Made by a program: the position numbers and the translations under genes
Notes under the pieces: generated by a model
What the model saw: the letters and a program-made list of their open reading frames with translations, nothing else
The model's database searches: none
Told to the model about the DNA's origin: nothing
In this document: in pieces, positions 8,165 to 17,217 of the stretch
Layout: each line of letters begins with the position of its first letter
How positions within the stretch are numbered: position 1 is the first letter of the stretch
NCBI RefSeq assembly: GCF_003217095.1
Contig: NZ_QJSR01000002.1
Span: forward strand, 434,001-498,000
Reading direction: 5' to 3'
DNA length: 64,000 nucleotides
Source of the DNA: Rhizobium sp. PP-CC-3A-592
GTDB lineage: Bacteria; Pseudomonadota; Alphaproteobacteria; Rhizobiales; Rhizobiaceae

Positions 8165-9376
8165 TCAGGCGCGTTCCGCCAGAGCGTCCTCGCCCTTCTT
8201 CTCGCGCAGCAGGTTGACGAAGCGGCGGAAGAGGTAGTGGCTGTCCTGCGGGCCGGGGGAGGCTTCCGGATGGTGCTGGACGGAGAAGACGGGCTTGCCG
8301 GAGAGACGCAGGCCGCAATTTGTGCCATCGAACAAAGAGACGTGGGTCTCCTCGACGCCGGCCGGAAGCGAGGCGGAATCGACCGCAAAGCCGTGGTTCA
8401 TCGAGACGATCTCGACCTTGCCCGTCGTATGATCCTTCACCGGATGGTTGGCGCCGTGATGGCCCTGATGCATCTTTTCGGTCTTGCCGCCGAGCGCAAG
8501 GCCCAGCATCTGGTGGCCGAGGCAGATGCCGAAGACCGGGATGTCGGTTTCGATCAGCTCGCGGATGACAGGCACGGCATATTCGCCGGTCGCTGCCGGA
8601 TCTCCCGGGCCGTTCGAGAGGAAGACGCCATCCGGGTTGAGCGCGAGGACGTCGTCCTTGCTTGTCGTCGCCGGCACGACCGTGACCTTGCAGTCGAGCC
8701 CGGTAAAGAGGCGCAGGATGTTGCGCTTCACACCGTAGTCGATGCAGACGACATGGTACTTGGCCGCATCCGCCGTCAGCGTGGCCGTTTCTTCGTTCCA
8801 GACCCAGGGCTTTTCGCTCCAGACAGAGGACTGCCCCGAGGTCGCGACCTTGGCGAGATCGAGGCCTTCGAGGCCGCTCCAGTCCTTCGCCATCGCCTTC
8901 AGCGCGTCGATGTCGAACTGCCCATTGGCATCATGGGCGATGACGGCGTTCGGGGCGCCGTTCTCACGGATCCAGGCCGTCAGAGCGCGCGTGTCGATGC
9001 CGCACATGCCGATGATCCCGCGGGCCTTCAGCCAGGCGTCGAGATGGCGCACGGCGCGGTAGTTGGAGGGGTCGGTGATATCGGCTTTGAAAATGACGCC
9101 GACCGCGCCGTGGCGAGCTGCCGGCGTCAGGTCCTCGATATCTTCGTCATTGGCGCCGACATTGCCGATATGGGGAAAGGTGAAGGTGACGATCTGGCCG
9201 AGATAAGACGGGTCGGTCAGGATTTCCTGGTAGCCGGTGAGGGCCGTGTTGAAACAGACTTCGGCGGGAACGGCGCCGGTCGCCCCGATGCCCTTGCCTT
9301 CGATCACGGTGCCATCCGCCAGGACGAGCATGGCGGTTGCGGTTTCAATGGTCCATGGAGCGGTCATCGGCGTCAT
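8165..9376 (-). CDS. carA: carbamoyl-phosphate synthase small subunit
   Basis: 403 aa. This glutaminase subunit delivers ammonia to CarB. The N-terminal domain begins MTPMTAPWTIETATAMLVLA and has the GYQEILTDPSYLGQIV and GVGAND-like stretches. The class I glutamine amidotransferase domain carries the nucleophile motif GICLGHQML and a late SVQHHPEASPGP with the catalytic His-Glu. Two start codons three codons apart are possible (9376 and 9367); neither has a strong ribosome site. The frame is open far upstream through dnaG, but that extension is antisense to real genes. Confidence 0.97.
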   Translation of the reverse strand: MTPMTAPWTIETATAMLVLADGTVIEGKGIGATGAVPAEVCFNTALTGYQEILTDPSYLGQIVTFTFPHIGNVGANDEDIEDLTPAARHGAVGVIFKADITDPSNYRAVRHLDAWLKARGIIGMCGIDTRALTAWIRENGAPNAVIAHDANGQFDIDALKAMAKDWSGLEGLDLAKVATSGQSSVWSEKPWVWNEETATLTADAAKYHVVCIDYGVKRNILRLFTGLDCKVTVVPATTSKDDVLALNPDGVFLSNGPGDPAATGEYAVPVIRELIETDIPVFGICLGHQMLGLALGGKTEKMHQGHHGANHPVKDHTTGKVEIVSMNHGFAVDSASLPAGVEETHVSLFDGTNCGLRLSGKPVFSVQHHPEASPGPQDSHYLFRRFVNLLREKKGEDALAERA

Positions 9377-9706
9377 CCCGTTGCGGCGAGGCGGCGGAAG
9401 ATCGGGCCACCGGGTCGCCAAGCTTCTCAGCACCCGGTGCCGCCCGGCGCATTCGGGCGCGGGTCGCAATTCGGGTCTCTCTTGGTGCAGGTCCTCGACA
9501 TAAGCGCGCGGTTGCGCGCGGTCAACCACTGCCAATGGAAATCCGCCGAATAATGCGGCCGCGCCCTGCGCTGCTCGCAAGAGGTCGCCGGCCATCCCAT
9601 CTGATGACGAAGCTGTTTGTTGCGGCCTTGCCGATGGTCTATGAGGGCCGCCAGGACGAAACACCCACAAGAGACGACACACCCACAAGAGACAAGGGAG
9701 ATACCC
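9377..9706. other. divergent intergenic region carA / yqeY-like
   Basis: These 330 bases separate divergent genes and must hold both promoters. No convincing -35/-10 pair was found. The one visible structure is a direct repeat, ACACCCACAAGAGAC, in two copies 18 bases apart (about 9661-9693), just upstream of the ribosome site of the rightward gene. Confidence 0.5.
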
Positions 9707-10165
9707 ATGCTGCGCGACACGATCAACGATGCCCTGAAGACGGCCATGAAGGCCAAGGATGCCCGCCGGGTTTCCACGCTGCGGCTGGTACAGGCCGCGC
9801 TGAAGGACCGCGATATCGCCAATCGCGGCGTCGGCAAGCCCGAGACGACCGATGACGAGCTGCTGCAGATCCTTGCGAAGATGGTCAAGCAGCGCGAAGA
9901 ATCGGCGAAGGTCTACGAGGATGCCGGCCGGCCGGAACTGGCCACGCATGAGCGCGAGGAAATCGTCATCATCGCCGACTTCCAGCCGGAGCAGTTCTCC
10001 GAAGCGCGGGTGAAGGAGGTCGTCACGGCCGCCATTGCCGATGCTGAGGCAACGGGCCCGAAGGACATGGGCAAGGTCATGGCGATCCTGAAGGAGCGGC
10101 ATGCCGGCCAGATGGATTTCGCCAAGGCATCCGGTGTGCTGAAGGGCCTTCTGTCGGGCGCCTGA
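9707..10165 (+). CDS. GatB/YqeY domain-containing protein
   Basis: 152 aa, starting MLRDTINDALKTAMKAKDAR with an AAGGGAG ribosome site 7 bases before the ATG. The whole protein is one YqeY domain: a helical N-terminal part (STLRLVQAALKDRDIANRG, KQREESAKVYEDAGR) and a C-terminal tail (GPKDMGKVMAILKERHAGQMDFAKASGVLKGLL) related to the tail of GatB in the tRNA-dependent amidotransferase. The family is often found beside dnaG and rpoD, as here. Its exact role is unknown; tRNA binding or amidotransferase assistance is only inferred from the domain. Confidence 0.93.
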   Translation: MLRDTINDALKTAMKAKDARRVSTLRLVQAALKDRDIANRGVGKPETTDDELLQILAKMVKQREESAKVYEDAGRPELATHEREEIVIIADFQPEQFSEARVKEVVTAAIADAEATGPKDMGKVMAILKERHAGQMDFAKASGVLKGLLSGA

Positions 10166-10309
10166 CGTCGCCCGTTTGCGCGATGTCCGGCGGTCGATGA
10201 CACGGCTGCCGGCTTCGCTTTTCCCGCCCGCGAGCGTCTTGCCTGTGGATAGCGGTGAGGGATGTTGCGCGCTGTAGCGGTACGGCGCGCAAGCGACTAT
10301 ATCGGGCGC

Positions 10310-12361
10310 ATGCGTTTTTCCCCGACCTTTCTCGAAGAGATCAAGGATCGCGTCCCGATTTCGGACGTGATCGGCAAACGCGTGACCTGGGACCGGAAGA
10401 AGACCAACGCGTCCAAGGGCGACTATTGGGCCTGCTGCCCCTTTCACGGAGAGAAATCGCCAAGCTTCCACTGCGAAGATCGGAAGGGGCGATACCACTG
10501 CTTCGGCTGCGGTGTTTCGGGCGATCATTTCCGGTTTCTGAACGAACTCGACGGGATGAGCTTTCCCGAGGCCGTGCAGCAGATCGCCGATCTCGCCGGC
10601 GTCGCCATGCCGCAGCCGGATGTGGAAGCGGAGAAACGCGACAGGGAGCGTTCGACCCTGCAGGACGTCATGGAAATGGCGACGCAATTCTTTCAGGATC
10701 AGCTTCAGACGGCGAACGGCGCCCGCGCCCGGGCCTATCTGCGTGACCGGGGCCTGACGGGGCGGACGATCGAGACGTTCCGGCTCGGTTACGCGCCGGA
10801 AAGCCGCAACGCCTTGAAAGAGCACCTTGCCAACAAGGGCATTCCGCGCGAGCAGATCGAGGCTTGCGGTCTCGTGGTGCACGGTCCCGACATCGCGGTA
10901 TCCTACGACCGTTTTCGCGACCGGATCATGTTTCCGATCCTGTCGTCGCGCGAGAAGGTGATCGCGTTCGGCGGGCGGGCCATGTCGCCCGATGCACCCG
11001 CGAAGTACCTCAACTCCAACGAGACCGAGCTCTTTCACAAGGGCAACGTGCTCTATAATTTTGCCCGTGCCCGCCGGACGCTGGGGGGCGCCGACGGCAA
11101 CGACACGATCATCGCCGTCGAAGGCTATATGGACGTCATCGCTCTCCATCAGGCCGGGATCGAGAACGCGGTGGCGCCGCTTGGGACGGCGCTGACCGAG
11201 AATCAGCTGGAGCTTCTCTGGAAGCTGACGCAGGAGCCGATCCTCTGCTTCGATGGCGATGGCGCCGGTATCCGCGCTGCCAATCGCGCCGTCGATCTGG
11301 CGCTGCCGCACCTGAAACCCGGCCGCTCCGTGCGGTTCGCGCTGCTGCCGGACGGCAAGGACCCCGACGATCTCGTGCGGGAAGAGGGGCGTGCGCCGTT
11401 TGACCGCGTGCTGGTGGCGGCGCGATCCCTTTCCGAAATGGTCTGGACCCGGGAGATTCAGTCGGGAAGCTTCGAGACGCCGGAAAAGCGGGCGGAGCTC
11501 GAGGCGAAGCTGAAGCAGGTCGTCGGCGTGATCGGCGACGAGAGCGTCCGCAGGCACTATGGGCAGGCGATGCGCGACCGGCTCAATACCTATCTGCGCG
11601 GGCCGCAGCGCTCCGGCTTCCAAGGCGGCGGCTTTCAGGGCGGAAACCATGGGCGCGGCGGAGGGACGGGCGGTTTCCAGCCCGGTGGCGGACAAAGGAG
11701 CGGCGGGCCAGGCGGTGGCCGATCCGGCGGTCGCGGCGGTTTCGGCAAGGAATCGGCGCCGATGCGCAGTCTTTCGGGCGTATCCGACCGGCTGGCGCGG
11801 TCCTCGATCGTCTCCGGCGTGCAGTCCCTGCCGCCGCTGAAGGAAAGCGTGCTGGCACTGACGATCGTCAATCATCCCGACGTGCTGTTTGCCGAGTATG
11901 ACGAGATCTCGGTGATCGACTACGAGAGCAAGGAGCTTCAGCGCCTCTGGTCGCAGGTGCTGAACGCGGCCGCCGCCAAGGGGCCGCGGCTGACGCGCGA
12001 GATGCTGGTGGAAAACCTGGAGGCCGCCGGTTTTGCCGGGCTTCTCGCCATGCTCGACCAGCAGGTTCGCTTCGCCCGCCTCTGGATCGCCACGCAGGCG
12101 GCCGATCCTGCCGATGCGCTGGAAGGCTATCGACAGGCTCTGGCGCTGCACAAGCGGACGAAGGCACTTCTCTGGCAGCGTCGCGAGCTGGAGCGGGATC
12201 TCGCACGGGCGACGGAAGACGGCGATGACGACCTGGCAAGCCTTGTCCTGCGCAATCTGGAAGAGGTGCAGAACGAAGTGGAGCGGCTGGAGAATCAGGA
12301 GGCGATTATCGAAGGATTCGGCGTGCTCTCCGGGCGGGTCAAAGGGCCGGGTGCCAAATGA
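10310..12361 (+). CDS. dnaG: DNA primase DnaG
   Basis: 683 aa. It makes the RNA primers for DNA replication and is recruited by the replicative helicase. The CHC2 zinc finger is intact: Cys43-x2-His46-x17-Cys64-x2-Cys67. The Toprim catalytic core follows, with VEGYMDV (about 270) and FDGDGAG (about 314). A roughly 50-residue glycine/arginine-rich linker (about 430-480, with GGGFQGG- and GGRSGG-type units) separates the core from the C-terminal helicase-binding domain. I chose the ATG at 10310 because homologues start MRFSP; an upstream ATG at 10262 would add 16 unconserved residues. It sits between yqeY and recQ/rpoD. Confidence 0.97.
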   Translation: MRFSPTFLEEIKDRVPISDVIGKRVTWDRKKTNASKGDYWACCPFHGEKSPSFHCEDRKGRYHCFGCGVSGDHFRFLNELDGMSFPEAVQQIADLAGVAMPQPDVEAEKRDRERSTLQDVMEMATQFFQDQLQTANGARARAYLRDRGLTGRTIETFRLGYAPESRNALKEHLANKGIPREQIEACGLVVHGPDIAVSYDRFRDRIMFPILSSREKVIAFGGRAMSPDAPAKYLNSNETELFHKGNVLYNFARARRTLGGADGNDTIIAVEGYMDVIALHQAGIENAVAPLGTALTENQLELLWKLTQEPILCFDGDGAGIRAANRAVDLALPHLKPGRSVRFALLPDGKDPDDLVREEGRAPFDRVLVAARSLSEMVWTREIQSGSFETPEKRAELEAKLKQVVGVIGDESVRRHYGQAMRDRLNTYLRGPQRSGFQGGGFQGGNHGRGGGTGGFQPGGGQRSGGPGGGRSGGRGGFGKESAPMRSLSGVSDRLARSSIVSGVQSLPPLKESVLALTIVNHPDVLFAEYDEISVIDYESKELQRLWSQVLNAAAAKGPRLTREMLVENLEAAGFAGLLAMLDQQVRFARLWIATQAADPADALEGYRQALALHKRTKALLWQRRELERDLARATEDGDDDLASLVLRNLEEVQNEVERLENQEAIIEGFGVLSGRVKGPGAK

Positions 12362-12467
12362 CGGATGGACTGTAGAGGTCATTCCGCGGCTCCTTGTCCT
12401 TGCTCCGGTTCATGGTTTCCGCCACGCGATCCGCTCTGGTCTGTGCGAAGAGGCGCGTGTCATTCAT
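12339..12467 (-). CDS. possible 42-aa small protein under an SOS box
   Basis: An open frame of 42 codons starts at the ATG complement of 12465-12467 and begins MNDTRLFAQTRADRVAETMN. It has a good ribosome site (AGGA, 7 bases from the ATG) and sits just downstream of a perfect alphaproteobacterial LexA box, whose edge lies 24 bases before the start. Its last 23 bases overlap the 3' end of dnaG on the other strand. The peptide is charged, with no membrane segment and no recognised domain. The evidence is position and signals only; it could be a chance frame, with the box serving recQ. Confidence 0.4.
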   Translation of the reverse strand: MNDTRLFAQTRADRVAETMNRSKDKEPRNDLYSPSVIWHPAL

Positions 12468-12490
12468 GAGACAATCCTAATTCATATTCT

Positions 12491-12505
12491 GAACAAATCA
12501 AGAAC
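12491..12505. promoter_or_regulatory. LexA (SOS) box
   Basis: GAAC-AAATCAA-GAAC matches the alphaproteobacterial LexA operator (GTTC-N7-GTTC on the other strand) exactly. It lies in the 275-base gap between dnaG and recQ. It could control recQ to the right or the small ORF to the left (12339-12467), or both. LexA recognition of this motif in rhizobia is established; binding at this copy is inferred. Confidence 0.75.
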
Positions 12506-12636
12506 AAATCGCTTTTCTTTCGCTTCTCTTTCTGTATTCTCGAGCCATGCCAGATGGGCAGGCAGGTGCACTCTGCTGTGGTCTTCGCGGCGTTCGGCAG
12601 CCAGCGCCCTCGCGCCGGCTGGTGGAATCGTGCAGA

Positions 12637-14574
12637 ATGGCTTTCATGACATCTTCTCAAGCGCCTTCTTTCTCGACACGGAACGATCCGCCTTTCGATC
12701 CGGTTCTCGATCCACCGGGCAGACAACGGCGGGAGTCCGCGCCGACCACATTTCGAGCGACCGGCAAGGCGCCGCTGGATGTGTTGAAAGCCGTCTATGG
12801 CTATTCCGTTTTTCGCGGACAGCAGGGTGATGTGGTCGAGCATGTGGTTTCGGGCGGGGATGCGGTGGTGCTGTTCCCGACGGGGGCCGGTAAGTCGCTT
12901 TGTTTCCAAGTGCCGGCGCTGTGCCGATCGGGGCTCGGGATCGTCGTGTCTCCCTTGATCGCACTGATGCGCGACCAGGTGGAGGCGTTGAAGGCGCTCG
13001 GCGTTCGGGCGGCGGCGCTGAACTCGTCGCTGTCGCGCGAGGACTTTATCGATGTGCGACGTTCCGTGCGCGACGGGACGCTCGATCTGCTCTACGTCAC
13101 GCCGGAGCGGATCGTGACAGACGGGTTTCGTGAGATGGTGGCGGGGGTGGAGATCGCACTGTTCGCGATCGACGAGGCGCATTGCGTATCGCAATGGGGG
13201 CATGATTTCCGGCCGGAATATCGCACGCTCGGGCAGCTTGCAACGCTCTATCCCGGCGTGCCGCGTCTCGCGCTGACGGCGACGGCCGATCCGCAGACGC
13301 GCGGCGATATCATCGAGCGGCTGGCACTGTCCGATGCGCGCGTGTTCAGCTCGAGTTTCGACCGGCCGAACATCGCCTACGAGATCGTCGAACGCGACCA
13401 GCCGCGCCAGCAATTGCTGCGCTTCCTCTCGCGGCACAAGGGGGCGAGCGGCATCGTCTATTGCCTGTCGCGTGCGAAGGTCGAGGACACGGCGGAATGG
13501 CTGAACGGGCAGGGCATCCGGGCGCGCGCCTACCATGCCGGCATGGACCGCGCTGTGCGTGACGCGAACCAGGATGCCTTCCTGAAGGAGGAAAACCTCT
13601 GTCTCGTGGCAACGGTCGCCTTCGGCATGGGGATCGACAAGCCGGATGTGCGCTATGTGGCGCATCTCGATCTGCCGGGCTCCGTCGAGGCCTATTACCA
13701 GGAGACAGGGCGCGCCGGACGTGACGGCATGCCGTCTCAGGCCTGGATGGCCTATGGCATGGCCGACGTCATTCAGCGGCGCAAGATGATCGACGAAGGC
13801 GGGGCGGCCGAGGACATCAAGCGCATCGAGCGGGGCAAGCTCGGGTCGCTTCTCGGCATCTGCGAGACGGCCTCCTGCAGGCGGCAGGCGATCCTCGCAC
13901 ATTTCGGCGAGCGTCATGCGGGCGGCTGTGGCAATTGCGATACCTGTCTGAACCCGGTCGAGACATGGGATGGCACCGAGGCGGCGATCAAGGCGCTGGC
14001 GGCCGTCTATCGCACGGGCGAACGCTTTGGCGCAGGTCACGTCATCGATGTGCTCACCGGCACGGTGAACGAGAAGACGACGCGGTTTGGCCATGCGGAT
14101 ATGCCGGTGTTCGGGGCGGGCAAGGAGATTGCGGCGAAGACCTGGCAGTCGATCCTGCGGCAGTTGCTGGCCGCCGGCTTCCTCAGCGTCGATCACGCCG
14201 CGTTCGGCGCCCTGAAGCTGGAGCCGACGGCACGCGCGGTCTTCAAGAAGGAAACGGAAGTGCGGTTCCGCAAGGACCGTCCGACATCTGCCAAGGCGGC
14301 CAGAAATGCACGCTCGCCGGCAGCAAAGGAAAAGGCGGCACTGGACGGGTCGGATCTCGAACTCTTCGAGGCGCTCAGGGGGACGCGCGCGGAAATTGCC
14401 CGCGGCATGAACGTGCCACCCTATGTCGTCTTCCCGGATACGACGCTGATCGCGCTTGCCAAGATGCGGCCTGATGATGCGGACGATCTGCTGGATGTTC
14501 CCGGCATCGGGCAGAGCAAGAAGGAGCGGTTCGGCGAGCAGTTCCTGGAGGTCATCCGGACGTTCCGCGGATAG
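12637..14574 (+). CDS. recQ: ATP-dependent DNA helicase RecQ
   Basis: 645 aa from the ATG at 12637 (alternatives at 12646 and 12547; none has a strong ribosome site). This 3'-5' helicase acts in recombination and fork repair. Motifs run in order: Walker A PTGAGKS, the DEAH box in [17 protein letters not shown] (helicase and aromatic-rich loop), the helicase C-terminal motif [15 protein letters not shown], a four-cysteine zinc site (CETASCRRQ ... CGNCDTC), an RQC winged-helix region, and a C-terminal HRDC domain ending [20 protein letters not shown]. The perfect SOS box upstream suggests possible damage induction. It lies between dnaG and rpoD. Confidence 0.95.
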
Positions 14575-15162
14575 TGTCCGCCCGTCCTTAAGCATGCCTT
14601 TCGACCGTGTGCCGTGGTTCAGCGGGACCGTCACGCGCGAACGCAGACTTCGTCCTGTTGGAAGGCTCTTTTCATGCCAAGTGCAAGAAAGTCTTGTGAG
14701 ATGTGACTTACCCGTGTGGGCGTCTCGGGTGAAAAGAGACAAGCGCGGTTGCTTGCGTGCGCAACCTTTCGTCTTGCTCTTGTCTTGCGGGTGAAACGTC
14801 CTACATCTGCCTAGCAGATAGACATAGCGGCAATGCCGAGCCTTAATTCCGGCGTTTTTCGCCTAATTGCGCTGTTTTCCGCCGGAAGAGCTTGACGTAG
14901 CCGAAGAATCTGGGAATCAACCGTCTTTGGCTTGGAAGGTTTATTGGATACGGCGGAAACGATCATCATGCAAGTGATGTTTGGAGCGTGCTGCTGTCGC
15001 AGCCGACCGGGATGACCGCGGCAGATGCCGTGGTTAATCGGGAATTAATATCAGCCCGTTAGGTCAGGGGTAATGTTCGCGGTGTTGCGCCGAAAAGCGC
15101 CCGGGCCACACGGCTCGTCACCGCTCCAACGTGGAATGCTGGTCCAAAGAAAGCGACGAAGA
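14575..15162 (+). other. long intergenic region before rpoD
   Basis: 588 bases without a credible gene. A possible sigma-70 promoter, TTGTCT-N16-TACATC, is at 14780-14807. A TTGACG hexamer at 14892-14897 lacks a good -10. Short in-frame extensions of rpoD exist (from 15073) but start in unconserved sequence. A long 5' leader for rpoD, or more than one promoter, is likely. Confidence 0.45.

Positions 15163-17217
<2,055 letters not shown>

Follow-up and report, generated by a model that had tools for sequence, protein, structure and literature searches.

A putative LexA operator upstream of recQ in two genera of the Rhizobiaceae

Results

The dnaG-recQ region

The window, a 64-kb stretch of a Rhizobiaceae genome at C2:434001-498000, contains dnaG and recQ in this order on the plus strand. 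The product of dnaG (10262-12361) is a DNA primase with Zn_ribbon_DnaG, DNAG_N and Toprim domains. The downstream gene, recQ (12646-14574), encodes an ATP-dependent DNA helicase in which five Pfam domains scored over the cut-off: the DEAD and Helicase_C core, the zinc-binding domain RecQ_Zn_bind, RQC and HRDC, as is characteristic of RecQ helicases. Alignment placed the start of recQ at 12646 or at the in-frame position 12637; the ATG at 12547, which opens the longest frame, is not conserved. Named sequences that match this region belong to Sinorhizobium, Rhizobium, Shinella and Allorhizobium.

Sequence analysis of the spacer between the two genes identified GAACAAATCAAGAAC at 12491-12505 of the plus strand. 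This is a GAAC-N7-GAAC direct repeat, the form that characterizes alphaproteobacterial LexA operators (or, on the complement, GTTC-N7-GTTC); GTTC and GAAC are both named as LexA motif groups in PMC6473078. A simple sigma-70 scan around the box found no promoter-like site; promoters of alphaproteobacteria often deviate from the sigma-70 consensus.

Taken alone, the bare GAAC-N7-GAAC pattern is weak evidence. It occurs three times in the window, where 1.76 matches are expected, and 160 times in the 5.12-Mb genome, where the same pattern read backwards occurs 78 times. Such numbers speak for a chance match on which LexA does not act, and the recQ box is considered significant because of its conservation and context and not because of the bare pattern. 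The more specific pattern TGAACAWWNNNNGAAC has the recQ box as its sole match in the genome, but as it was derived from that box the single match proves nothing alone.

Other SOS boxes of the genome

Twenty regions, chosen from 100 of the 160 genome matches, were fetched, and five of them carried six regulatory-looking boxes; for the other 15 the analysis went as far as a list of reading frames. Boxes similar to that of recQ precede uvrA/ssb, lexA, recA, a uvrD-type helicase gene and a radical-SAM gene. The genome encodes LexA and carries like boxes at core SOS genes (lexA, recA and uvrA/ssb). The uvrA/ssb box, GAACAAATAAAGAAC, is located at C2:1011253, with lexA just past ssb. It shares with the recQ box the GAAC-N7-GAAC structure, the AAAT that follows the second half-site and a very similar spacer (AAATAAA, as compared with AAATCAA before recQ), a likeness of spacer and flank that argues against a chance match at recQ. 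The distance to the gene is also similar, since from the coordinates the gap is 116 bp before ssb and roughly 120 bp before recA. The divergent uvrA-ssb SOS operator of Sinorhizobium meliloti is the subject of a paper cited in PMC1839093. The two sites differ in that the uvrA-ssb operator is flanked by two real divergent genes, whereas in the window genus only one side of the recQ box is occupied by a real gene.

A weight matrix was built from five boxes located elsewhere in the genome, with the recQ box excluded. The recQ box scored 27.0, which is the top score in the window; the second-best site scored 12.9. The five sites were picked by us as preceding likely SOS genes, and the score therefore supports the assignment but does not prove it.

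Two further sites were observed in the same genome. An SOS-like box, GAACATAAAGAGAAC, followed by AAAT, is present at 1322-1336 of locus L129 (C4:12322), and the leftward frame near it resembles an XRE-type regulator by eye; this is possibly a mobile-element switch. The box that precedes the radical-SAM protein gene, GAACAATGCAAGAAC (position 1347 of L132; C1:849946), marks that gene as a possible further member of the SOS regulon.

Conservation of the box within the genus

The dnaG-recQ spacer was aligned for seven species of the genus, in all of which lexA and recA were found. The initial annotation had reported an exact LexA-type site between the two genes, and the alignment bears this out: the site at 12491-12505 is conserved in all seven, with all eight half-site bases invariant. 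Seventeen of the 21 positions of 12489-12509 are invariant, as against 24 of the 164 in the remainder of the spacer (12362-12546), which is otherwise strongly diverged. A scan of the spacer found its best-conserved 21-base windows on the box. Given 41 invariant positions among 185 in the spacer, the hypergeometric probability of eight invariant half-site bases out of eight is about 3e-6, a figure that can serve as a guide only, the species being related and the sites linked. The distance from the end of the box to the aligned recQ ATG is 137-141 bp in the seven species. This degree of constraint argues against a chance match.

Distribution of the box in other genera

A RecQ match was present in 259 Rhizobiaceae genomes, and for the 113 that scored best the DNA upstream of the matched part of recQ was inspected over as much as 700 bp; shorter stretches were available for G226 (about 560 bp), G113 (184 bp) and G306 (160 bp). 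The exact box was found upstream of the same gene in 7/7 genomes of the window genus, as expected of a LexA operator, in six of the seven of a second genus, g76, and in none of 99 genomes from 27 other genera. It was also absent from all 11 named loci (L002-L012) within the 1000 bp checked. Since the exact box is missing from all of these 99 genomes and 11 loci, LexA control of recQ would not be general in the family.

Base shuffling of the 103 stretches from outside the genus (200 runs) gave a mean of 1.5 box-bearing genomes and a maximum of 6, and in numbers alone this leaves room for chance. The six box-bearing genomes actually observed outside the genus, however, all belong to g76; in five of them the 15 bases of the box are identical to those in the window, and in all six the box lies 149-162 bp before the RecQ match. 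The presence of a near-identical site before the same gene in a second genus, always near one position, argues against a fortuitous origin, and together with the invariance of the half-sites and the likeness to the uvrA/ssb box it leads us to consider a chance match at recQ highly improbable.

In g76 the box has a second neighbour. In all six box-bearing genomes a leftward gene, intact and 127-128 codons long, starts 38-45 bp from the box; in L175 the leftward frame adjoins the box at 2041. The L175 product, the one of the six that was scanned, matches Glyoxalase (PF00903, E 1.4e-5, above the cut-off). The seventh genome, G381, has neither the box nor the leftward gene in its stretch. The recQ-VOC arrangement of g76 (G276, L175) resembles that of the window genus in having the exact box before recQ and downstream of dnaG, and differs from it by the leftward glyoxalase (VOC)-family gene, which the window genus does not have at this place. 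As this leftward gene is intact, different and real, a divergent arrangement does exist at the same place in relatives. VOC-like proteins of the seven congeners have at most 46% identity to the g76 product among the matches listed, and none of them is encoded at the recQ locus.

In a midpoint-rooted tree of 40 RecQ sequences (support values not read) the window genus grouped with g10, and g76 with a Shinella locus, g46 and g72. The box is absent from these tree neighbours (0/2 in g10, 0/7 in g46 and 0/7 in g72). This distribution could reflect two gains of the recQ box or repeated losses.

The antisense 42-codon frame

The minus strand contains a frame of 42 codons at 12339-12467 (stop included), running into the 3′ end of dnaG. 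The initial annotation had proposed that the box might also serve this frame, and its elements are literally present: an ATG, the open frame that follows and, 7 nt ahead of the ATG, an AGGA. The box would then be bidirectional and would also drive an SOS-induced 42-aa protein, or an antisense transcript reaching into the 3′ end of dnaG. The leftward gene beside the same box in g76 lends some plausibility to this, but that gene encodes a different protein, of 127-128 codons. The notion that the 42-aa frame is a remnant of the g76 VOC gene was rejected: no resemblance was seen by eye, and a Pfam scan of the frame gave no match.

Open frames of this size are common, 60 ORFs of at least 40 aa overlapping positions 9000-16500 when real genes are counted. 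The full frame is kept in two of the seven species, those of the window and G154. In G155 a large deletion has shortened the frame to 26 residues, which are still in register; the frame is broken by frameshifts in G151 and G094, and nothing similar was found in G152 and G153. Changes outside dnaG are spread over the three codon positions with no bias (4/3/4 in G154 and 1/5/5 in G151). Four of the six relatives retain a similar motif in place of AGGA (AGGC in G154 and G151, AGGG in G155 and G152), while in G094 and G153 it is unrecognisable. Nowhere in the spacer is conservation lower than in the stretch occupied by the frame. A tblastn search with the frame produced a match in one of 151 family genomes; as that sample contained only one other congener, more weight is given to the alignment within the genus.

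The conservation expected of an SOS-induced small protein was therefore not found, and the proposed link between DNA damage and the end of the primase mRNA is likewise not supported. We conclude that a small protein encoded by this frame is very unlikely, judging from the alignment, and that an unconserved leftward transcript may exist; a bidirectional role of the box in the window genus appears most improbable. The alternative offered by the initial annotation itself, that the frame is due to chance and the box belongs to recQ only, fits the data best.

A conserved putative leader upstream of recQ

A further conserved stretch (12547-12645, plus strand) lies between the box and the start of recQ. 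Over 12547-12644 its identity to five of the six congeners is 89-95%; for the opening 126 bp of recQ, the range in these five species is 64-92%. The sixth, G153, is without the leader (33% identity over 12547-12644).

Several explanations for this conservation were considered. An upstream ORF (frame A), from a GTG at 12566 to a TGA at 12647-12649 that overlaps the recQ ATG, was rejected: its stop is kept in six species, but GTG is replaced by GTC in G155. No coding-type bias was detected in any frame of 12566-12645, where the first, second and third codon positions hold 6, 6 and 3 of the 15 variable sites; the corresponding numbers for the dnaG tail, given for contrast, are 3, 0 and 43. A search against Rfam at the gathering score did not match the leader, the single match being a tRNA elsewhere, and two weak matches were obtained below the threshold. 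The leader fold had a z of -0.04. In the consensus fold the covariation term was +0.7; both partners had changed in three of the 43 pairs, and several pairs were broken. A dispersed element was also rejected, as the genome contains one copy. Weak leader-like matches, seven in other genera and one in Azospirillum, look like chance similarities in G+C-rich sequence.

Discussion

The combined data make it very probable that the site at 12491-12505 is a LexA operator which places recQ in the SOS regulon, and that the 42-codon leftward frame is there by chance. The operator would sit 131-140 bp before the recQ start. In cells with intact DNA a LexA dimer bound to the direct repeat would repress the recQ promoter and keep the level of recQ low. 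Upon damage, RecA filaments would trigger self-cleavage of LexA, and recQ would then be derepressed alongside uvrA, ssb, recA and lexA, raising the amount of a helicase used for recombinational repair. We infer LexA binding, repression and induction of recQ from the sequence of the site, its position, its conservation and its likeness to other boxes. The upstream neighbour, dnaG, is not thought to be under the control of this box.

LexA boxes of Gammaproteobacteria such as E. coli and V. cholerae are of a type other than the alphaproteobacterial one, to which the GAAC direct repeat described here belongs. The gene under control is nevertheless the same. It had been assumed in the initial annotation that LexA control at this place has no obvious textbook precedent; this does not hold, as recQ is reported to be under SOS control in both E. 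coli and V. cholerae (PMC5963079). For E. coli the observation goes back to Irino et al. 1986, cited in PMC5963079 and PMC9138961, and V. cholerae recQ (VC0196) appears in the SOS table of PMC5963079. A putative, unconfirmed box is mentioned for S. aureus recQ1 (PMC11442139). In Agrobacterium, a rise of recQ has been interpreted with recQ as an SOS gene on the strength of the E. coli paper (PMC9138961). Our literature search, which did not reach the comparative regulon study by Erill et al. (2004), listed no description of a LexA site in front of recQ in an alphaproteobacterium. The site in the window is an ordinary, well-conserved SOS operator, and recQ as an SOS gene is already known elsewhere.

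A broader scheme can be outlined, which we regard as rather unlikely. According to it, recQ would be SOS-controlled in two rhizobial genera which lie apart in the RecQ tree: in one of them the operator would be common to recQ and the divergent VOC gene, and in the other a leader of about 100 nt, acting as a short translated leader or through RNA folding, would add post-transcriptional control to the damage-induced recQ mRNA.

With this analysis a small-protein candidate drops out as spurious, and the predicted SOS regulon gains a helicase in two rhizobial genera; the VOC-family gene of g76 becomes a possible SOS gene. With the exact box before recQ in 13 of 14 genomes of these two genera and in none of 99 genomes of 27 others, the predicted SOS regulon would vary among the genera of one family.
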